This document shows, in pieces, positions 7,104 through 14,618 of a DNA stretch of 14,618 bases. The stretch lies in NCBI GenBank assembly GCA_937863905.1, contig CALMHV010000053.1, positions 1 through 14,618 of the forward strand, written 5' to 3'. The stretch comes from an uncultured Bacillota bacterium (GTDB lineage: Bacteria > Bacillota > Sulfobacillia > UBA995 > UBA9673). How positions within the stretch are numbered: the stretch's first letter is position 1; the number at the start of each line of letters is the position of its first letter. Position numbers and translations under genes: made by a program. Below the pieces are notes generated by a model that saw nothing but the letters and a program-made list of their open reading frames with translations, was not told the origin of the DNA and searched no databases.

Positions 7104-7925
7104 ATGGGACCTTCTCCCGAGGGTTCCTCCTGGCCACGCCCAATCTCCCCTCTCGGAGAAGTAGAGCTTCAAGAAACACTGCACCAGGCCCTCGCCGGCG
7201 ACGGCGAGGCCCGCCAGCGCATTATCCAGTCCCACCTCAGGCTGGTCTGGGATATCGTCCGGCGGTTCAAGGGCCGTGGCGCGGACACCGAGGACCTTTT
7301 CCAGATCGGTTGCGTCGGTCTTGTGGCCGCCCTCGACCGCTTCGACCTCTCCTTCGGCACGCGCTTCTCCACCTACGCGGTACCCCTAATCCTCGGTGAG
7401 ATAAGGCGCCATCTCCGCGATGACGGCCCGGTCAAGGTCTCGCGGCGGGCCAAGGAACTGGCCCGGGAGGCCTGGCGGACGCAGGAGGAGATGACGAAGG
7501 CCACCGGGCGGGTGCCCACGGTGACCGAACTGGCCAAGGCGCTCGGCGTGGAGGCGGCGGAGGTCGCCGAGTCGCTGGAGGCCGCGAGATTGCCCCTCTC
7601 GCTCTTCAGCGAGAGCCGCGGCGAAGGCGCCGGCGAGTCCTTCTACCTCATCGACCAGTTGGCGGCCTCCGGCGACATCGCCGCCACGGCGGCCGGCCGG
7701 CCCGTGGCGGGCGGGGCGGAGGAGGAGCGTGTCCTGGAAGGCGTGGCCCTCCGGGAAGCCCTCTCTCGCCTGGACGAGCGCGAGTGCCGCCTCCTTACCC
7801 TCCGGTTCTTCGAGGACAAGACCCAGGCCGGCGTGGGCGAGGCCCTGGGTGTCTCGCAGGTCCAGGTCTCGCGCCTGGAAAAGCAGGCCCTCCTCAAGCT
7901 TCGCGCGATGCTTTCCTCGGAGTGA
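7104..7925 (+). CDS. sigF: RNA polymerase sigma-F factor, forespore specific
   Basis: A 273-residue sigma-70-family factor (255 in B. subtilis SigF/SpoIIAC) that directs early forespore transcription. Region 2 covers about 38-112, with SHLRLVWDIVRRF, EDLFQIGCVGLVAALDRFD and GTRFSTYAVPLILGEIRRHLRDD. Region 3 covers about 113-175 (VSRRAKELA, TGRVPTVTELAKALGV). Region 4 covers about 219-271 (LTLRFFEDKTQAGVGEALGVSQVQVSRLEKQALLKLR), containing the helix-turn-helix. The linker at 188-217 is longer and more Ala/Gly-rich than in Bacillus. ATG 7104 has GGAGGGG (7091-7097) 6 nt upstream, inside the end of spoIIAB; an open frame upstream to 7014 encodes only Arg/Gly-rich sequence and is rejected. Sigma-F rather than sigma-G is called because it follows spoIIAA-spoIIAB directly. 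Confidence 0.95.
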   Translation: MGPSPEGSSWPRPISPLGEVELQETLHQALAGDGEARQRIIQSHLRLVWDIVRRFKGRGADTEDLFQIGCVGLVAALDRFDLSFGTRFSTYAVPLILGEIRRHLRDDGPVKVSRRAKELAREAWRTQEEMTKATGRVPTVTELAKALGVEAAEVAESLEAARLPLSLFSESRGEGAGESFYLIDQLAASGDIAATAAGRPVAGGAEEERVLEGVALREALSRLDERECRLLTLRFFEDKTQAGVGEALGVSQVQVSRLEKQALLKLRAMLSSE

Positions 7926-7976
7926 CCGGCGGCGGGCGGCGATTCGCCTCCCCGGATTGGGCCCCGCCTGCCGAGG

Positions 7977-8006
7977 GCATACTCCCCGACGGTAGCGGCG
8001 ACCTGA
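7977..8006 (+). promoter_or_regulatory. Weak sigma-F/sigma-G-like promoter candidate
   Basis: GCATA (7977-7981) matches the -35 shared by sigma-F and sigma-G. After a 15-nt spacer, GGCGACCTGA (7997-8006) matches 8 of 10 positions of the sigma-F -10 (GGnRAnAnTW). The position between sigF and the spoVA genes is apt, since spoVA is forespore-transcribed in Bacillus. A start at about 8013 would, however, cut into the ribosome site of the gene at 8020, so such a promoter would mainly serve the dodecin-like gene and spoVA. Low confidence. Confidence 0.22.
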
Positions 8007-8019
8007 GGGAGGGGGAGCG

Positions 8020-8214
8020 GTGCCCACCTGGACGCGTGGCCGCGTCAGGGTTCTCATCCTCGTCGGTCTGCTCGTCACGACCCTCCTCGTCCTGGCATCC
8101 CTGATTTACTTCAGGGCCGGCCCGCGTGTTCCCGAGGGGGCTGACACGGTGCGGTCGGGCGGAAGCCCGGTGGGGTGGAGCGAGCCGGGGCCGGCGGGCG
8201 GAGCGGGAGGATAG
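8020..8214 (+). CDS. Hypothetical 64-residue single-pass membrane protein
   Basis: I do not recognise this gene. GTG 8020 has an excellent ribosome site (GGGAGGGGGAG, about 8007-8017). The protein starts with a short basic segment (Trp4, Arg6, Arg8, Arg10). One hydrophobic helix follows at about 11-31 (VLILVGLLVTTLLVLASLIYF), then a Gly/Pro/Ser-rich polar tail of about 33 residues. A lipoprotein Cys is absent, and the design suggests an N-in anchor with an outward tail. It lies 94 bases after sigF and 40 bases before the dodecin-like gene, where Bacillus has spoVAA and spoVAB, but it resembles neither in length or sequence. Codons end mainly in G or C like its neighbours, which supports coding. 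It could be a small forespore membrane protein. Confidence 0.6.
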   Translation: MPTWTRGRVRVLILVGLLVTTLLVLASLIYFRAGPRVPEGADTVRSGGSPVGWSEPGPAGGAGG

Positions 8215-8254
8215 CCGCGGCGAACGGACAGCTTCCGAAGGGAGCGAGCGGAAA

Positions 8255-8479
8255 GTGACGGTCGTCAAAGTGCTGGAACTCGTAGGGGAGTCGCAGCAGA
8301 GCTGGCAGGACGCCGCCAACCAGGCCGTCATGGAGGCGGCCAAGACCGTGCACAACATAACGGGGGTCGAGGTCTCCAACTGGACCGCCCACGTGGACGA
8401 CGGTCGTATCTCGAACTACAAAGCGAACGTAAGATTGGCCTTCGTCGTCGACAGCGAGCGCCACGCCCCGAAGGCCTAG
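8255..8479 (+). CDS. Dodecin-like small protein in the sigF-spoVA interval
   Basis: A 74-residue protein with the dodecin pattern (COG3360 type): first strand VTVVKVLELVGES, helix SWQDAANQAVMEAAKTVHNI, then strands GVEVSNWTAHVDD and RISNYKANVRLAFVVDS. Classical dodecins assemble as 12-mers and bind riboflavin/FMN pairs using a Trp in the first turn after the helix and a Gln in the last strand. Aligned by eye to what I recall of those proteins, the Trp position is Gly37 here and the Gln position is Lys56, while a Trp occurs later (Trp43). Flavin binding is therefore uncertain, and another ligand is possible (a calcium-binding dodecin is known in mycobacteria). GTG 8255 is chosen because the family N-terminus begins there, with GAAGGGA at about 8237-8243. 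It precedes spoVAC by 11 bases and is probably co-transcribed with it. Confidence 0.82.
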   Translation: MTVVKVLELVGESQQSWQDAANQAVMEAAKTVHNITGVEVSNWTAHVDDGRISNYKANVRLAFVVDSERHAPKA

Positions 8480-8490
8480 CCGAGACCGGC

Positions 8491-8955
8491 ATGGCCAAGG
8501 CCGACAAGTCGACAGCCCAGCGGTACGCCCGCTTGGTCGCCAGGCGAAGTCCCAAGCCGCCCGTCCTGAGGAACGCCGTGACGGCCTTCCTGGGCGGTGG
8601 AGCGATTTGCTCCCTTGGCCAGGCCGTCTTGGGCTTCTTCCTGGTGCGGGGCTTGACGCTCGGCGAGGCCGCCATCACGGCCTCGGCCGTGATGGTCGGG
8701 TTGGGGGCGCTCCTAACCGGCCTGGGCATCTACGACGAGATGGGCCGGTGGGCCGGAATGGGGGCCGCTCTACCCATCACCGGGTTTGCCAACTCCATCG
8801 TGTCTCCGGCCATGGAGTACCGGCGGGAGGGGCTCGTTCTGGGCGTCGGAGCCCGGCTCTTCACCATCGCCGGCCCGGTCATCGTCTACGCCGTCGCCGC
8901 CGCGCTGCTCGCCAGTGTCGTGCGTCTGCTTGTGTCCGGAGGGTTGGGAGGCTAG
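8491..8955 (+). CDS. spoVAC: Stage V sporulation protein AC (Ca-DPA channel subunit)
   Basis: A 154-residue integral membrane protein (150 in Bacillus). SpoVAC is part of the forespore inner-membrane channel that moves dipicolinic acid into the spore and releases it at germination; in Bacillus it behaves as a mechanosensitive channel. The family sequence is plain: PKPPVLRNAVTAFLGGGAICSLGQ (21-44), then LLTGLGIYDEMGRWAGMG and LPITGFANSIVSPAMEY (94-110), REGLVLGVGARLFTIAGPVIVY (112-133). Hydrophobic segments lie at about 28-52, 60-80 and 114-148. The ATG at 8491 has only a weak ribosome site, so translation may depend on coupling to the dodecin-like gene 11 bases upstream. The stop is 2 bases before the spoVAD GTG. 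The related SpoVAE downstream shares the GLG-x-YD and AGxGAxxP motifs. Confidence 0.95.
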   Translation: MAKADKSTAQRYARLVARRSPKPPVLRNAVTAFLGGGAICSLGQAVLGFFLVRGLTLGEAAITASAVMVGLGALLTGLGIYDEMGRWAGMGAALPITGFANSIVSPAMEYRREGLVLGVGARLFTIAGPVIVYAVAAALLASVVRLLVSGGLGG

Positions 8956-8957
8956 GC

Positions 8958-10004
8958 GTGCCCAAATCGAGGGCGAAGGCCGGGCCGGGCAAGGTTGGGC
9001 AAACGATGGTCTTCGCCAAGGCGCCGACCATCCTCGGCGCGGCCTCGGTCGTCGGCCCGCGCGAGGGCGCCGGCCCCCTGTCGGGGTGGTTCGACGTCAT
9101 CAAGCCCGACCGGCTGCTCGGCCAGAGAAGCTGGGAGATGGCCGAGTCCAAGATGGTCGAGGAGGCCGTGGATCTGGCCCTGGCCAAGGCGGGCGTGAAA
9201 CGGCGGGACCTCGACTTCCTCTTGGCGGGGGACCTTCTCAACCAGATCATCGCCTCGAGCTTCGCCGCCCGGAACATCGACCGGCCCTACCTCGGGCTTT
9301 ACGGGGCCTGTTCGACCATGGCTCTGGCCCTGGCCCTCGGCGCCGCCCTGGTCAGCGCTGGTTTCGCCCGGCACGTGGGAGCCGTTTCGTCGAGCCACCA
9401 CGACACGGCTGAGCGTCAGTACCGCTCCCCGACCGAGTTCGGAAGCCAGCGGCCGCTCACGGCGCAGTGGACGGCGACGGCTGCCGGGGCCGTGGTCATG
9501 GGGCCGCCGGGCCAAGGCGACCTGCGCCTCACCCACGCCACGATCGGCCGGGTCGTGGACAACGACCAGAAGAATCCCTTCGACATGGGGTCGGCCATGG
9601 CGCCGGCGGCCGCCGACACCATCGTCGCTCACTTTAAGGATACCGGGCGCAAGCCCGACGCCTACGACCTCATCGTCACGGGCGACCTGGCGGCCGTGGG
9701 CCAGCCCCTGGCGGGCGACCTCCTGGCGGAGAAGGGTATCGACCTCGGTAACCGGTTCGTGGACTGCGGGAAGATGATCTATGACGAGACGCAGGACGCC
9801 CATGCGGGCGGGAGCGGCTGCGGCTGTTCGGCCTCCGTCTTCGCGGGCTACCTGGTCAAGAACCTGGCCGCCGGGAAGCTGCGCCGCGTTCTCTTCGTGG
9901 GCACGGGGGCCCTGCACAGCCCGACCTCCTACCAGCAGGGCGAGAGCATCCCGTGCGTGGCCCACGCGGTGGCGGTGGAGAACGGGCGGGTCTGCGGCAA
10001 TTGA
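8958..10004 (+). CDS. spoVAD: Stage V sporulation protein AD (DPA-binding, thiolase fold)
   Basis: A 348-residue soluble protein with a thiolase-like fold that binds dipicolinic acid at the forespore inner membrane. The match to Bacillus SpoVAD (338 aa) runs the full length: MVFAKAPTILGAASVVGPRE, SWEMAESKMVEEAVDLAL, LLAGDLLNQI, YGACSTMALALALGAALVSAGFA (Cys118), SSSHHDTAERQYRSPTEFGSQ, FDMGSAMAPAAADTI, VTGDLAAVGQPL, DCGKMIYDETQDAHAGGSGCGCSA (259-282) and VGTGALHSPTSYQQGESIPCVAHAV. GTG 8958 has GGGAGG (8946-8951) 6-7 nt upstream and lies 2 bases after the spoVAC stop; an ATG at 9006 would remove 16 residues and has no ribosome site. The N-terminus is about 8 residues longer than in Bacillus. A 67-base gap separates it from spoVAE. 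Confidence 0.95.
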   Translation: MPKSRAKAGPGKVGQTMVFAKAPTILGAASVVGPREGAGPLSGWFDVIKPDRLLGQRSWEMAESKMVEEAVDLALAKAGVKRRDLDFLLAGDLLNQIIASSFAARNIDRPYLGLYGACSTMALALALGAALVSAGFARHVGAVSSSHHDTAERQYRSPTEFGSQRPLTAQWTATAAGAVVMGPPGQGDLRLTHATIGRVVDNDQKNPFDMGSAMAPAAADTIVAHFKDTGRKPDAYDLIVTGDLAAVGQPLAGDLLAEKGIDLGNRFVDCGKMIYDETQDAHAGGSGCGCSASVFAGYLVKNLAAGKLRRVLFVGTGALHSPTSYQQGESIPCVAHAVAVENGRVCGN

Positions 10005-10055
10005 AGGCCGCCCCCTTGGCGGGGTGGCCCCACGGATAGGTCGGAGATGGCCGAG

Positions 10056-10063
10056 AGGAGGTG
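10056..10063 (+). promoter_or_regulatory. Ribosome site that places the spoVAE TTG start
   Basis: AGGAGGTG ends 8 nt before TTG 10072. No in-frame ATG or GTG with a ribosome site precedes the conserved part of SpoVAE, so this site is the main evidence for a TTG start. Confidence 0.65.
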
Positions 10064-10071
10064 TCGAGGCC

Positions 10072-10449
10072 TTGGATGCGGCGACGGGTCTGAGTCTTGG
10101 TGGTTTCGTCACGGCTTTCGTCGTGGGTGGGCTCATCTGCGTCCTGGCCCAACTCGTCCTGGACCTGACCCGGCTCACCGGAGCACACGTGATGGTCCTC
10201 TTCGTTGTCTTGGGCGCCGCGGCCAGCGGCCTCGGCCTCTACGACCCCTTGATTCGCTTCGCCGGAGCGGGGGCTTCGATTCCCCTCCCGGCCTTCGGTC
10301 ACGCTCTGGTCCAGGGGATGCTCAAGGGGGCCGCGAGCACGGGCCTATCAGGTCTTCTCAGCGGGGGGCTGTCCGCGGCGGCCTTGCCCCTGACGGTGGC
10401 CATTCTGTTCGGGCTGGCGATGGCCCTGACCTTCCGGCCCAAGGGGTGA
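10072..10449 (+). CDS. spoVAE: Stage V sporulation protein AE (SpoVAEB type)
   Basis: A 125-residue membrane protein (116 in Bacillus SpoVAEB), a third subunit of the spore Ca-DPA channel. Family features are GGFVTAFVVGGLICVLAQLVLD (10-31), LTGAHVMVLFVVLGAAASGLGLYDPLIRFAGAGASIPLPAFGHALVQGM (35-83) and the conserved end GLAMALTFRPKG. Hydrophobic helices lie at about 12-30, 38-56, 90-104 and 106-121. The start is assigned to TTG 10072 from the ribosome site at 10056-10063; the frame is open further upstream but only overlaps the end of spoVAD. The sequence is a distant relative of SpoVAC, as expected. No SpoVAEA or SpoVAF follows; instead, a redox-type gene starts 7 bases after the stop. Confidence 0.92.
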   Translation: MDAATGLSLGGFVTAFVVGGLICVLAQLVLDLTRLTGAHVMVLFVVLGAAASGLGLYDPLIRFAGAGASIPLPAFGHALVQGMLKGAASTGLSGLLSGGLSAAALPLTVAILFGLAMALTFRPKG

Positions 10450-10456
10450 TGACCTG

Positions 10457-11593
10457 ATGGCGATGGCCTGGCAACTCCGCCTCAAGGACGGAGCCGTGGT
10501 CGGCCTGCCCCGGGCGCTCCTGTTCTACGAACTGTACCCGTTCTGGCGCGGGCTCCTCGAGGGTCTGGGACTACGGGTCGCGGTCTCGACCGCAACGTCG
10601 CCGAAGCTTATCGAGGCCGGGGCCAGGCACGCCATGGACGAGGCCTGTCTTCCCGTGAAGAGCTTCTACGGGCACGTCATGGTCTTGCGCGACCGGGTGG
10701 ACGCGGTCTTCCTCCCGCGCCTGGTCAGCCTGAGCCCCGGCACCTACACCTGCCCGAAGATGCTGGGTCTTCCGGACATGGTCCGGCAAAACCTCCGCAG
10801 CCTCCCCCCGGTCATCGTCGCCGATTTCGACGCCAGACTCTGGCGACGGAGCCTGGAGGAGGGCGGGGAGAGCGTCGCCTGCCGGCTGGGACGGTCACGG
10901 GGACAAGCCAGGGAAGCGGTCTCCAGAGGACTGGAGGCCCTCCGGAGCTTCCGGGGGAGCCTGGAGGCCGGGCAGTCTTTCGAAGAAGCGGCGTCCGGCG
11001 CCGCACCGGGGTGGAAGACGCCGCTGGAGGGGTGGAAGACGCCGCTGGAGGGGTGGAAGACGCCGCTGGAGGGGTGGAAGGCGCCGCTGGCGGGAGGCGA
11101 CCCGGCGCCGACGAGGCCGGGCCCCAGGCGCCTGCGGGTCGGGCTGGTCGGGCACGCCTACAACCTCTTCGACCCGGGGGTGAACCTCGGCCTGGGCCGC
11201 AAGCTGGTGGCGCTCGGGTGCGACCTGGTGACCAGCGAGCAACTGAGCGAGGAAGAGGTCCAGACCGAGTCGGCGGCCCTGCCCAAGGAAATCTTCTGGA
11301 GCAGCGGCCGCCGCATCCTGGCGGCGGTGACGCGTTTCCGGAGGCGAGAACTGGTGGACGGGTTCATCCATGTGGTCTCCTTCGGCTGCGGCCCGGACTC
11401 GATGGTCGGCGAGATAGCCGAACGGGAGACCCGGCGGTCGTCGAACCTACCGTACATGGCTCTGACCATCGACGAACACACGGCCGAGGGCGGACTCCTG
11501 ACGCGGCTCGAGGCCTTCACGGACATGCTGGCGCGGCGGCGGGCCCGACCGGAGACGCCCGAGGGCTCCGTCGCGGCGGAGGTCACGGCGTGA
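10457..11593 (+). CDS. CoA-dehydratase-activase-related protein, DUF2229/COG3580-like
   Basis: A 378-residue cytosolic protein resembling DUF2229/COG3580 of the 2-hydroxyacyl-CoA dehydratase/activase superfamily. The N-terminal family pattern is clear: VGLPRALLFYELYPFWRGLLEGLGLRVAVS, then EACLPVKSFYGHV (Cys64) and YTCPKMLGLPDMV (Cys99). A second half begins at about 225 (RLRVGLVGHAYNLFDP) and carries SFGCGPDSM (Cys311) and the closing motif DEHTAEGGLLTRLEAF (339-354). Cys64, Cys99 and Cys311 are candidate ligands for a [4Fe-4S] cluster. The halves are joined by a linker at about 140-222 containing four copies of a G-W-K-T-P-L-E heptad. ATG 10457 lies 7 bases after spoVAE, with AAGGGG (10441-10446) upstream. 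The stop overlaps the next GTG. The reaction catalysed is unknown; members of the superfamily do ATP-driven low-potential reductions. Confidence 0.8.
   Translation: MAMAWQLRLKDGAVVGLPRALLFYELYPFWRGLLEGLGLRVAVSTATSPKLIEAGARHAMDEACLPVKSFYGHVMVLRDRVDAVFLPRLVSLSPGTYTCPKMLGLPDMVRQNLRSLPPVIVADFDARLWRRSLEEGGESVACRLGRSRGQAREAVSRGLEALRSFRGSLEAGQSFEEAASGAAPGWKTPLEGWKTPLEGWKTPLEGWKAPLAGGDPAPTRPGPRRLRVGLVGHAYNLFDPGVNLGLGRKLVALGCDLVTSEQLSEEEVQTESAALPKEIFWSSGRRILAAVTRFRRRELVDGFIHVVSFGCGPDSMVGEIAERETRRSSNLPYMALTIDEHTAEGGLLTRLEAFTDMLARRRARPETPEGSVAAEVTA
11009..11092 (+). repeat. Four tandem 21-bp repeats in the linker of the COG3580-like gene
   Basis: Units start at 11009, 11030, 11051 and 11072. The first three are identical over 21 bases; the fourth differs at two positions (ACG to GCG and GAG to GCG). 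Each unit encodes one heptapeptide (G-W-K-T-P-L-E; G-W-K-A-P-L-A in the last) at residues 185-212. A period of 21 keeps the reading frame, so copy number can change by slippage without breaking the gene. There are no spacers between units, so this is not a CRISPR array. Confidence 0.95.
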
Positions 11594-12735
11594 GAGTCAC
11601 CTTCCCCCACATGGGTAACCTGTGGATCATCGCCAAGACCCTCCTCGAGGACCTGGGACTCGAGGTCATCGTGCCTCCCCTCCCGAACCGGCGAAGCCTG
11701 GACGTGGGGGTCAGGCACGCGCCGGAGTTCGCCTGCTTCCCGCTCAAGCTGAACATCGGCGACTTCGTCGGGGCCCTGGACCAGGGGGCCGAGGCCATCG
11801 TGATGGCCGGCGGCATCGGACCGTGCCGGTTTGGGCACTACGCCCAGGTCGAGGCCCAGGTCCTCCATGACCTTGGCTACGACGTCGAGATGGTCATTCT
11901 TGAGCCGCCCCGGGGGCATCTCGACGGATTGCTGGCCAAGATCCGCCGTCTCTCCGGGGGGAAACCCCTGACCCGGGTGTGGAGGGCCATCCGCTTCGGG
12001 TGGGAGAAGCTGGTGGCCCTGGACGAGTTCGACCGGGCCCTGACCCGGGCGCGACCGGTGGAGCGCCTGACGGGCTCGGCGGCCCGGGCTCATCGGGCCG
12101 CGGCCGCTCGTCTCGCTGACGCGGACGGCGTTTGGGCGACGCGCCGCGTCGGCAGGGAAGGCGTGAGGGAGATCCTTTGCGCGGCGGGACTGGAGGAGTC
12201 TGGCCGGCCGGGCGAGCCGTCGTGGGGCAAGCCGTTCCCGCGCCTGCGCGTGGGGCTGGTCGGCGAGCTTTTCATGGTCGCCGAGCCTTTCGCCAACCAG
12301 GAGATCGAGAGGCGCCTCGGCGAGATGGGCGTGGAGGTGCTCCGTCCGCTCTACCTCTCGGACTGGGTGCGGACCCACCTCATCCCGCGTGTCTTCCAGC
12401 CTGGCCGGCGTCGGCGGGCCTCGGAGGTCAAACGGGCGGCCCGGCCGTACCTGGGGCACTTCGTCGGTGGGGAGGGCCTGGACAGCGTGGGGGAGACCAT
12501 CCTCTTCGACCGGCAGGGGTGTGACGGGGTGATCCACGTGGCCCCGTTCACCTGCATGCCCGAGATAGTGGCCGCCAGCCTGCTCCCCGAGGCCGGGCGG
12601 GACCTGGGCCTCCCCGTGCTCAGCCTGTTCCTGGATGAGCACACGGCCGAGGCCGGCCTGACGACACGCCTGGAGGCCTTCGTCGACCTTCTGGGGCGGC
12701 GCCGGGCGGTCGGCGGGGCGAGGGAGAAGTGGTAA
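11590..12735 (+). CDS. CoA-dehydratase-like protein, COG3581-like
   Basis: A 381-residue paralogue and likely partner of the preceding protein. The N-terminal half has VTFPHMGNLWIIAKTLLEDLG, EFACFPLKLNIGDFVGAL (Cys49) and the hallmark GIGPCRFGHYAQVEAQVL (Cys79). The second half begins at about 218 with RLRVGLVGELFMVAEPFANQEIERRLGEMG. It also contains APFTCMPEIVAASLL (Cys322) and ends with LDEHTAEAGLTTRLEAFVDLL, nearly the same motif as its neighbour. Cys49, Cys79 and Cys322 can be proposed as Fe-S ligands, as in HgdB/HgdC-type dehydratases. GTG 11590 overlaps the upstream stop (GTGA), and GGAGG (11578-11582) lies 7 nt before it. The stop shares a base with the activase ATG (TAATG). An alternative reading as HgdB itself is less likely because of the GPCRFG motif. 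The substrate is unknown. Confidence 0.8.
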   Translation: MRVTFPHMGNLWIIAKTLLEDLGLEVIVPPLPNRRSLDVGVRHAPEFACFPLKLNIGDFVGALDQGAEAIVMAGGIGPCRFGHYAQVEAQVLHDLGYDVEMVILEPPRGHLDGLLAKIRRLSGGKPLTRVWRAIRFGWEKLVALDEFDRALTRARPVERLTGSAARAHRAAAARLADADGVWATRRVGREGVREILCAAGLEESGRPGEPSWGKPFPRLRVGLVGELFMVAEPFANQEIERRLGEMGVEVLRPLYLSDWVRTHLIPRVFQPGRRRRASEVKRAARPYLGHFVGGEGLDSVGETILFDRQGCDGVIHVAPFTCMPEIVAASLLPEAGRDLGLPVLSLFLDEHTAEAGLTTRLEAFVDLLGRRRAVGGAREKW

Positions 12736-13745
12736 TGGGGACCAAGCCAGCGACAGGGCACGTGTGGCTCGGCATCGACGTGGGGTCGGTGACGACGAAA
12801 GCGGTGGCCGTCGGCGAGACGGGCGCCATCCTGGCGCACATCTGCCACGAGACCATGGGCCAGCCGGCCCGCCAGGTCGTGCGGGGTCTGGTCGAGCTTG
12901 GCGCCCAGCTGGCGGAAGTCCGGCGAAAGCCTCGGGTCCGGGGAGTGGGAACGACCGGGAGCGGGCGGTCTCTGGCCGCGGCTCTGGTTGGCGGGGATGT
13001 GGTCAAGAACGAGATAACCGCGCACGCCGTGGCGGCTCTGGACCTCGTGCCCGACGTCCGGACCGTCTTGGAGATAGGCGGACAAGACTCGAAGATCATC
13101 CTCTTGAGGGACGGGGGCGTCTCCGACTTCGCCATGAACACGGTGTGCGCCGCAGGGACGGGGTCGTTCCTCGACCGTCAGGCGGCGCGGCTCGGCCTCG
13201 CCCCGGCGGAACTGGGCGAACTCGCCCTGCGGTCGAAGCGCCCTGTCCGCATCGCCGGAAGGTGCGCCGTGTTCGCCGAAACGGACATGGTCCACCAGCA
13301 GCAGATAGGACACGCGGTCGAGGATATCGTGGCCGGTCTCTGCCAGGCCTTGGTGCGCAACTACCTGAATAACCTAGCCAAGGGGAAGGACCTCGAGCCC
13401 CCGTTCGTCTTTCAGGGCGGTGTCGCCGCGAACCGCGGCATGGTGGCCGCCTTCGAAGGGACCCTGGGCCATCCGGTGACGGTCCCGGAGCACCACGTCC
13501 TGATGGGGGCCTTCGGGGCGGCCCTCCTGGCCAAGGAGGCCGGTCTGGCCTCGACCAGGTTCCGCGGCTTCGGACTTGGGCGGATGGAGCACCGGACCGC
13601 CAGCTTCGACTGTGACGGGTGCCCGAACGCGTGCGAGATAACAGAACTCCGGGTGGACGGGGCCGTGGCGGCGAGATGGGGCGGGCGCTGCGACCGCTGG
13701 CAGCGGCAAGGGTCGCCGGCCCGCGAGGCGGGGGTCGAGGCGTAG
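12735..13745 (+). CDS. Acyl-CoA dehydratase activase-type ATPase (BadF/BadG/HgdC, COG1924)
   Basis: A 336-residue actin/HSP70-fold ATPase of the kind that donates low-potential electrons to 2-hydroxyacyl-CoA dehydratases and related Fe-S reductases. Nucleotide-binding motifs are GIDVGSVTTKAV (phosphate 1, 13-24), GTTGSGR (72-78), EIGGQDSKII (phosphate 2, 113-122) and QGGVAANRG (227-235). Cys138 (NTVCAAGTGSF) and Cys177 (AGRCAVFAETDM) are the pair that, in the HgdC family, ligates one [4Fe-4S] cluster across a dimer. Beyond the usual end at about 272 there is an extra segment with Cys293-x2-Cys296-x3-Cys300 and Cys319 (GGRCDRW), a possible second Fe-S or zinc site. ATG 12735 is chosen over GTG 12729 because AGGGAG (12721-12726) is then 8 nt away. 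It completes the three-gene module. Confidence 0.9.
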   Translation: MGTKPATGHVWLGIDVGSVTTKAVAVGETGAILAHICHETMGQPARQVVRGLVELGAQLAEVRRKPRVRGVGTTGSGRSLAAALVGGDVVKNEITAHAVAALDLVPDVRTVLEIGGQDSKIILLRDGGVSDFAMNTVCAAGTGSFLDRQAARLGLAPAELGELALRSKRPVRIAGRCAVFAETDMVHQQQIGHAVEDIVAGLCQALVRNYLNNLAKGKDLEPPFVFQGGVAANRGMVAAFEGTLGHPVTVPEHHVLMGAFGAALLAKEAGLASTRFRGFGLGRMEHRTASFDCDGCPNACEITELRVDGAVAARWGGRCDRWQRQGSPAREAGVEA

Positions 13746-13792
13746 GGGAGAGGACGGCCCCGGCGAAGGGAGACGCCCTGGAGGTGCATCGC

Positions 13793-14506
13793 GTGACGAG
13801 CAAGGATGTCGGCCCGGCTCCCGCAGGCTGGGACGAACTCGCCTGGCCGGGACTCTGGGCGCCGCTCGCGGCCTTCGCCCTGTACTTCGTGGCCACTCTG
13901 GTCATTGTCACGGTGGTGCTCGGAATCCAGACCGGGTTGACCGGCCAACTCCCCGGCACCCCGTCTCCGGGGGCCCAGGCCTGGGTCACCCTGGCGAGTC
14001 TGGTCATCTTAGGCGGGGTAAGCCTGGCGATGCTCTCCCGTCACCGGGGCCAGGGTCTTAGACGGGTCGTCTCGCTCGGAAGCAAGCTGCGGCGTGCCGA
14101 CTTCGTCCCTGTCCTCGTGCTGCTGGTTCTGACCATCCCGACGGGCCTGGCCATCGCCTACTTCCTGAGTCTTCACCAGGTCAACCTCGACCCCGAGATG
14201 GGCAAGTTCCTGACCCATCCGGCGGGTCTGGTCGCGGCCCTGGTCGGCGCCCCCGTGGCCGAGGAACTGTGGTTGAGGGGGCTCCTCTACGGCTCCCTGC
14301 GCCGCTGGGGACCATGGGTGGCGGTCGTCGGGACGGCGGTCGTGTCGGCCGCGGTGCACCTGCAACTCGCGCAGTCGCTCAGCGTCCTCCCGGGGATGCT
14401 GGCCTTGAGCTGGCTCAGGTACCGTACGGGCCGGCTCGCGCCCTGCGTCGTTCTCCACGGGCTAAACAATCTCTGGGCGGTGATCGTGAGCTTCATAGCC
14501 GTGTGA
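13793..14506 (+). CDS. CPBP-family intramembrane metalloprotease-like protein
   Basis: A 237-residue membrane protein of the CPBP (CAAX protease / bacteriocin-processing, Abi) family. Hydrophobic segments lie at about 20-46, 62-82, 103-125, 144-156, 171-188 and 216-236. The conserved motifs are present in order: Glu157-Glu158-x3-Arg162 (VAEELWLRG), His189 (VVSAAVHLQ) and His222-x3-Asn226 (LHGLNNLWAV), which in the family line an intramembrane glutamate/metal site. GTG 13793 is set by GGAGGTG (13780-13786) 6 nt upstream; the frame is open to 13619 but that part overlaps the activase gene. It follows the activase by 47 bases and may be the last gene of the transcript. Substrates are not predictable. 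Family roles include prenyl-protein cleavage, peptide maturation and anti-sigma processing. Confidence 0.85.
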   Translation: MTSKDVGPAPAGWDELAWPGLWAPLAAFALYFVATLVIVTVVLGIQTGLTGQLPGTPSPGAQAWVTLASLVILGGVSLAMLSRHRGQGLRRVVSLGSKLRRADFVPVLVLLVLTIPTGLAIAYFLSLHQVNLDPEMGKFLTHPAGLVAALVGAPVAEELWLRGLLYGSLRRWGPWVAVVGTAVVSAAVHLQLAQSLSVLPGMLALSWLRYRTGRLAPCVVLHGLNNLWAVIVSFIAV

Positions 14507-14512
14507 TCTCGG

Positions 14513-14527
14513 GGCCGCCCGGCGGCC
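14513..14527 (+). other. Short GC hairpin after the CPBP gene
   Basis: GGCCGC and GCGGCC form a 6-bp stem around a 3-nt loop, 6 bases after the stop. A second small stem follows (GCCGC 14553-14557 with GCGGC 14565-14569). Neither is followed by a T-run, so an intrinsic terminator is not well supported, although position fits an operon end. Confidence 0.25.
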
Positions 14528-14581
14528 GCCCCGTCGGGCCGGGTGGCCTGGAGCCGCTCTCCTTGCGGCCAAGTCCGGCAG

Positions 14582-14593
14582 GTTTGGCCAAAC
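14582..14593. promoter_or_regulatory. Perfect 12-bp palindrome, operator candidate
   Basis: GTTTGGCCAAAC reads the same on both strands and lies in the noncoding tail of the window. It is followed by two direct ACGGGA copies (14594-14599 and 14605-14610). The AT-containing flanks stand out from the surrounding GC-rich DNA. This could be a regulator site for a gene beyond the right edge, which is not visible. Confidence 0.3.
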
Positions 14594-14618
14594 ACGGGAA
14601 GAATACGGGAGCAGCCAC

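Follow-up and report, generated by a model that had tools for sequence, protein, structure and literature searches.

What is a set of genes resembling an ATP-driven Fe-S reductase doing at the end of a spoVA operon, beside the genes for the dipicolinic acid (DPA) channel of the spore? The question is raised by a stretch of 14,618 nucleotides (nt), here called the window, which is contig CALMHV010000053.1 (C53) of assembly GCA_937863905.1 from an uncultured Bacillota bacterium (1.94 Mb, 452 contigs, 93% complete). Three genes on the + strand, which we call A, B and C, follow spoVAC, spoVAD and spoVAE. Only 7 nt separate the spoVAE stop from the start of A, A and B overlap by 4 nt (GTGA), and B and C overlap in TAATG. 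The original prediction, made from the DNA letters, had described this arrangement, and its coordinates hold; it had called the module 'fused' to the spoVA operon, which is right as to linkage but is better worded as 'co-operonic'. Our analysis indicates that A-B-C is likely to be a low-potential Fe-S reductase, driven by ATP, made in the forespore and special to anaerobic endospore formers. Four computed lines of evidence support this reading: a conserved linkage, a near restriction to genomes that carry SpoVAD and are poor in oxidases, sigma-G-like promoters, and a fold together with a Cys pattern.

We surveyed the linkage in three collections. Among 41 genomes of relatives, the window genome included, DUF2229 (the Pfam family of A and B) was found in 29 and SpoVAD in 37, and in 14 (G000-G003, G009, G011, G016, G018, G020, G021, G022, G025, G031, G034) DUF2229 followed SpoVAD on the same strand at a distance of up to about 5 kb; two of these genomes, G003 and G034, have B and C on a second contig. 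We also scanned named species with B; of the 560 relatives obtained, the best 80 loci were annotated with open reading frames (ORFs) and phmmer. A locus was taken as linked if a sigF, spoIIA or spoVA-type gene lay upstream on the same strand inside the fetched locus, and as undecidable if its contig began less than 3 kb away. By this measure 61 of the best 80 loci lay downstream of sigF/spoVA-type genes, 9 lay elsewhere and 10 were undecidable. The gap to the nearest sigF, spoIIA or spoVA-type gene was 3-798 nt in 60 linked loci and 3.2 kb in L066. Eight of the 61 (L050, L051, L066, L075, L082, L097, L124, L125) showed spoVAF- or spoVAEA-type genes only, and these clusters were named by eye, with one representative of each confirmed by Pfam. 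The titles of linked loci name, among others, Desulfofundulus, Pelotomaculum, Thermincola, Orenia, Natroniella, Tepidanaerobacter and Symbiobacterium. Their consensus order is dacF-spoIIAA-AB-sigF-spoVAC-AD-AE-(spoVAEA)-(spoVAF)-A-B-C, continuing after C with (trpB-like)-lysA-(CBS/tRNA nucleotidyltransferase)-M50 peptidase-trpS-scpA-scpB-ytfJ; Pfam was used to check one representative per neighbour cluster, and the remaining genes were named by cluster membership. In a third collection, a sample of 398 genomes from the phylum, B followed SpoVAD on the same strand at no more than 12 kb in 51 of the 79 genomes for which both places were among the 150 placed matches listed per search. A chance adjacency in one genome was rejected, since the linkage recurs in both genome sets and in the named loci. 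The survey of A-B-C after spoVAE proposed in the original prediction thus finds the adjacency in many families, and the result that would have spoken against it, an adjacency in this genome only, was not seen.

A few loci depart from this picture in detail. In G001 an aminotransferase-like ORF (named by eye; L032 8645-9970, - strand) lies between B and C on the opposite strand. For the B-like genes of L112, L123 and L073, from Desulfosporosinus, Bacillota and Desulfotomaculaceae bins, phmmer found no neighbouring A or C. Two metagenome-assembled genomes titled Deltaproteobacteria and Desulfovibrio (L087, L094) carry a locus of the spoVA-A-B type and are probably mislabelled or contaminated bins.

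The 398 genomes, sampled evenly, were used to relate the module to SpoVAD. The profile of B matched 317 genomes and SpoVAD was matched in 337; a best E value for B of at most 1e-60 was called strong (276 genomes) and the remaining 41 weak, a division made by eye, and the matches of B were compared with the SpoVAD and COX1 tables by eye rather than by parsing. Strong B was present in 266 of 337 SpoVAD-positive genomes but in 10 of 61 SpoVAD-negative ones, leaving 71 genomes with SpoVAD alone and 51 with neither (Fisher p 8e-21, without phylogenetic correction). We then built quick LG+G4 trees of 99 and 83 rows, from which pieces of B shorter than 75% of the profile had been dropped, along with 12 duplicates in the case of the 99-row tree; the 83-row tree additionally omits 40 close relatives, 30 of them linked, and labels L047 and L115, whose linkage is undecidable, as unlinked. 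All 40 linked rows used in the 83-row tree fell on the same side of one branch (SH-aLRT 99; midpoint root only), a side that comprises 65 rows. In 8 of the 10 SpoVAD-negative genomes with strong B the best copy lay outside this 65-row clade, and the two with a copy inside it were G295 (63% complete) and G277 (93% complete, 230 contigs). These data support the conclusion that, with few exceptions, the linked clade is restricted to SpoVAD-positive genomes; this applies to that clade and not to DUF2229 as a whole, and its marker is SpoVAD rather than observed sporulation. An equal presence in non-spore-formers, which the original prediction had named as evidence against itself, was likewise not seen. 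We also noticed a second A-B subfamily that is not linked to spoVA (L005, L006, L007, L010, L017 and relatives); four of its five genomes (G009, G016, G025, G034), the exception being G035, contain a linked copy as well.

The same sample revealed a relation to oxygen. A strong heme-copper oxidase (COX1 E at most 1e-80) was found in 31 of the 398 genomes, 27 of them SpoVAD-positive. Within the SpoVAD-positive genomes, strong B occurred in 1 of 27 with strong COX1 as against 265 of 310 without it (Fisher p 9e-19, uncorrected for phylogeny), and in the single exception, G089, the oxidase match is weaker than in the other 30. Among the 41 genomes of relatives, COX1 with an E value of at most 1e-10 was present in 2 of the 14 linked genomes versus 15 of the 23 other SpoVAD-positive genomes (p 0.006), a comparison that gave p 0.056 when only COX1 below 1e-90 was counted; at the former threshold COX1 was also present in 8 of the 10 SpoVAD-positive genomes of this set that had no DUF2229 match. 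The control genome of Bacillus subtilis, which has SpoVAD, gave no DUF2229 match.

Strict anaerobiosis alone could account for the oxidase pattern. This would be expected if A-B-C were an anaerobic reductase of general, vegetative function, retained in a block of mixed housekeeping and sporulation genes (xerD ... sigF-spoVA ... lysA-trpS-scpAB), and the block does include lysA-, trpS- and scpAB-like housekeeping genes, while paralogues of A-B-C occur away from spoVA. However, with oxidase-negative genomes alone, strong B is still found in 265 of 310 that have SpoVAD compared with 10 of 57 that lack it, 8 of the 10 being outside the clade, and a sigma-G-like promoter precedes A even at 3 of 6 loci unlinked to spoVA. 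We therefore consider a vegetative role unlikely.

The promoter evidence came from scoring a sigma-G consensus (GNATA, 16-19 nt, CATA-TA) over the 200 nt upstream of each gene. A score of at least 9/10 was reached upstream of A at 23 of 81 loci, whereas GC-matched windows from these loci predict 3.65 and the reverse strand gave 1; the 81 loci include a few fetched twice (e.g. L033/L048), matches in sister species are not independent, and the 11 loci below L047 gave no match. Perfect scores were seen before A (12/81), dacF (8/45) and spoVAC (1/46), and in none of the other 12 gene sets; a score of 9 was seen before dacF at 2 of 45 loci. Among the 61 linked loci, matches before A depended on the room available, with 0/12 at upstream gaps below 50 nt, 2/12 at 50-90 nt and 17/37 at 90 nt or more, and one further match came from the 3 undecidable loci. 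For the cluster genes (spoVAF, spoVAEA, lysA, trpS, scpA, M50, trpB-like), upstream windows begin at the open frame and not at the start codon, which makes these genes less strict controls than B and C.

The short gap between spoVAE and A in the window leaves no room for a separate promoter of A. The candidate forespore-type promoter of the spoVA operon (Table 1) has a -10 block that reads GGGCATAMTCC in three of four family members and GGGCAGAATCC in the fourth. The original prediction had seen neither promoter nor terminator between spoVAE and A, in agreement with our scans, which found no terminator-like site there and no sigma-70-like promoter in 7900-14618; these were scans for consensus sites only, and leave room for a vegetative promoter. 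In the window, A-B-C is probably co-transcribed with spoVAC-AD-AE from the forespore-type promoter, and at part of the other loci A has a sigma-G-like promoter to itself. The module thereby shares with the spoVA operon and the sigma-G regulon both gene order and, at part of its loci, sigma-G-like promoters, a feature present at the family level. We infer that A-B-C is very probably expressed in the forespore.

We then compared the subunits with known enzymes. A matched DUF2229 (E 8e-44) and, at its C-terminal end only, PF06050 (HGD-D; 29.4 bits, cut-off 28.4); B matched DUF2229 more weakly, and its HGD-D end scored 23.5 bits, below the cut-off. In both, the PF06050 match covers just the last 60-70 residues and not the full length expected of a 2-hydroxyacyl-CoA dehydratase (HAD). 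C matched BcrAD_BadFG (E 7e-48) as well as the TIGR00241 activase. A and B are homologous but distinct genes (hhalign E 8e-35), and single-sequence searches of the PDB with either found little. Their predicted folds match the double-cubane protein DCCP, HAD (3o3n) and benzoyl-CoA reductase (BCR), so that in these models both have the three-domain alpha/beta subunit fold of the BCR class I/HAD/DCCP superfamily. Each also has the minimum of three conserved Cys for a predicted open-site [4Fe-4S] cluster (Table 1), and C, with its ATP motifs and invariant C138 and C177, provides the BadF/HgdC-type ATPase partner. Key Cys and ATP motifs had been noted in the original prediction, and we find these residues invariant in alignments of 28-32 sequences.

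Although DCCP was the best structural match, we did not adopt a double-cubane protein as the identity of A-B, because a double cubane takes six Cys per subunit and the three invariant Cys in A and three in B are too few. In addition, DCCP is a homodimer from one gene, whereas A and B appear from the sequence to be two different subunits, in contrast to the DCCP:DCCP-R structures (PDB 6eno, 7yyl, 7yzm). The available part of PMC11971306 mentions no spore-locus linkage for DCCP, unlike the spoVA-linked A-B-C. In the same part, BzdN is described with an [8Fe-9S] double cubane held by six Cys ligands, and BzdO with a three-Cys site at 95-128-380, which the spacings 64-99-311 in A and 49-79-322 in B resemble. 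Compared with the class I benzoyl-CoA reductases (BzdNOPQ, 8s02; MbdONQP, 9gai), then, A and B have three Cys each as opposed to the six reported there for BzdN, and we noticed no aromatic-degradation context around A-B-C.

Could A-B-C instead be a radical enzyme of the dehydratase kind, acting on a CoA ester or other substrate to make a spore metabolite rather than to maintain redox state? Cluster sites with three Cys are characteristic of HAD, and both A and B, which are different subunits, have three conserved Cys and a predicted fold that matches 3o3n. As in HadBC-HadI ((R)-2-hydroxyisocaproyl-CoA dehydratase) and HgdABC (3o3m, 4eht, 1hux), the catalytic part consists of two unlike subunits that share one fold, and the ATPase has two interface Cys. 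However, A-B-C lacks a full-length HGD-D, C has a 4-Cys tail, and the context is spoVA and not amino-acid fermentation; no CoA-transferase was noticed beside the module, although no profile search for one was made. The original prediction had seen no canonical dehydratase system next to these genes, which is correct for the neighbourhood but not for the genome, where a full HGD-D pair is found on contig C169 and further BadF-type ATPases on C302 and C362, none of which adjoins A-B-C, the single DUF2229 locus of this genome. We regard a dehydratase-like role as possible but doubtful.

The 4-Cys tail of C is supported in linked copies by invariant alignment columns. It was rejected as a mark of the spore clade, as it is also present in unlinked paralogues, in C beside fused A-B and in the long fused protein L003; the long fused proteins L018, L019, L021, L022, L024 and L027-L030, and the activase L155 of the window's own genome, gave no match to it. 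The variable linker of A holds GWKTPLE repeats, encoded by a 21-bp tandem repeat (Table 1), which inspection by eye did not find in 27 aligned relatives of A.

Returning to the reductase reading, we can outline how A-B-C would work by analogy with its relatives. C would form a homodimer with one shared [4Fe-4S] cluster and hydrolyse ATP, as do relatives of C, and would receive an electron from a ferredoxin-like donor, perhaps via the extra 4-Cys site in its tail. It would pass on this electron, at a very low potential, to a heterodimer of A and B. Each of these two subunits may hold one open-site [4Fe-4S] cluster on three Cys, as in 2-hydroxyacyl-CoA dehydratase; A-B would then reduce or radically transform a substrate in the forespore. 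That A-B-C carries out ATP-driven electron transfer of this kind is nearly as probable, in our judgement, as its expression in the forespore. Its job is more of a guess: tentatively, it may put an oxygen-sensitive Fe-S enzyme, cofactor or metabolite of the core into its reduced state or return it to that state, either when the spore is close to maturity or when it germinates. We favour oxygen-sensitive redox chemistry of the core as the setting because the module is nearly absent from oxidase-bearing spore formers. The roles put forward in the original prediction, namely reduction of a spore metabolite, protection of Fe-S or thiol chemistry in the dormant core and preparation of electrons for germination, are guesses too.

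The location of A-B-C with the DPA channel genes also suggested an enzyme linked to dipicolinate, either a stand-in for DPA synthase or a reductase of DPA or its precursor. Synthesis of DPA from dihydrodipicolinate is, however, an oxidation, and a DpaA-like protein (TIGR02853, E below 1e-50 though below the family cut-off) was found in 10 of the 14 linked genomes, the window genome among them, and in 12 of the 23 unlinked SpoVAD-positive genomes. Because the DpaA-like protein coexists with the module, we rejected A-B-C as a replacement for DpaA, and any dipicolinate-linked role appears very improbable.

Several observations weigh against a reductase special to anaerobic spores. Both forespore expression and the enzyme activity of A-B-C are predictions from sequence and structure models. 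Linked rows do not strictly form one clade, as copies without linkage and forms in which A and B are fused are nested among them, and one linked row (L119) falls among the paralogues in the 99-row tree, with a weak placement on a long branch. A strong match to B fails to split the spore clade from its paralogues in every genome, and DUF2229 as a whole occurs in 4 of 14 control genomes (Thermus, Deinobacterium, Thermotoga, Lactococcus), none of which is known to form spores. Strong B is missing from 71 of 337 SpoVAD-positive genomes, and 45 of these 71 have no strong oxidase either, so sporulation as such does not require the module; within the order of the window genome, G004, G005 and G007 carry SpoVAD yet lack the linked module. 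The forespore-type promoter of the window is itself a weak match, and a sigma-G-like score of 9 was also seen before trpS (5/34), spoVAC (6/46), spoVAF (3/42), spoVAEA (3/33), lysA (2/37), B (2/93), spoVAD (1/50) and the trpB-like gene (1/24).

The window begins on the + strand with xerD, deoB and genes for a purine and a pyrimidine phosphorylase (all four named by eye), followed by dacF, spoIIAA, spoIIAB and sigF and then by the features of Table 1. The small ORF gave no Pfam match of note and is possibly the first gene of the spoVA operon. As a single sequence, the dodecin-like gene had no match in Pfam or the PDB; such a gene also lies between sigF and spoVAC in several related loci (L033, L104, L107, L109 and others). 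Dodecins stack a Trp on flavin, and in the consensus of the dodecin-like sequences a Gly is aligned at this position (GVEV for WFEV), so the gene may encode a non-flavin dodecin of the forespore. No CPBP (Rce1-like) cluster was noticed among the recurrent neighbours of A-B-C at other loci.

Table 1. Position and supporting evidence of features in and around the spoVA-A-B-C operon of the window.
Feature	Position	Strand	Evidence or remark
Candidate forespore-type (sigma F/G-like) promoter of spoVA operon	7954..7984	+	8/10 positions of the consensus, 19-nt spacer; weak alone
Small ORF with one hydrophobic stretch (by eye)	8020..8214	+	Start region kept in 4/4 family members; directly 3' of candidate forespore promoter
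Dodecin-like gene	8257..8479	+	Profile of 14 sequences matches PDB dodecins, E 3e-10
spoVAC	8491..8955	+	TIGR02838, 164.5 bits (cut-off 164); PF03862
spoVAD	8958..10004	+	PF07451, E 1e-144
spoVAE (SpoVAEB type)	10072..10449	+	TIGR02839, E 2e-36, 124.7 bits, just below cut-off 131.1; PF03862, E 1.5e-27
Subunit A, COG3580-like (DUF2229 and HGD-D end)	10457..11593	+	Invariant Cys64, Cys99, Cys311
21-bp tandem repeat in A	11008..11094	+	4.1 copies, 96% match; encodes GWKTPLE repeats in variable linker
Subunit B, COG3581-like	11590..12735	+	Invariant Cys49, Cys79, Cys322
Subunit C, BadF/HgdC-type ATPase	12735..13745	+	Interface Cys138, Cys177; 4-Cys tail Cys293, 296, 300, 319
CPBP (Rce1-like) intramembrane protease gene	13619-14506	+	Directly 3' of C

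A term search of the main text of the 2012 census of sporulation genes (PMC3533761) gave no activase, dehydratase or BadF. Our literature search found no publication that ties the A-B-C family to sporulation, though an earlier mention may exist.

Sporulation is best known from Bacillus subtilis, which is an aerobe. The chances appear evenly balanced that A-B-C is an overlooked, ancient, sigma-G-controlled reductase, driven by ATP, working at low potential and loaded into the spore, which the majority of anaerobic SpoVAD-positive lineages have retained and respiratory oxygen users have lost, and which readies or restores oxygen-sensitive redox chemistry of the core for dormancy or revival. If so, anaerobic and aerobic spores would differ intrinsically. 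The tracking of the module with SpoVAD and with the absence of oxidase over 398 genomes, together with its sigma-G-like promoters, suggests that anaerobic spores have a redox step that has not been studied, and may provide a physiological setting for a branch of the BCR/HAD/DCCP superfamily that has had no known role.

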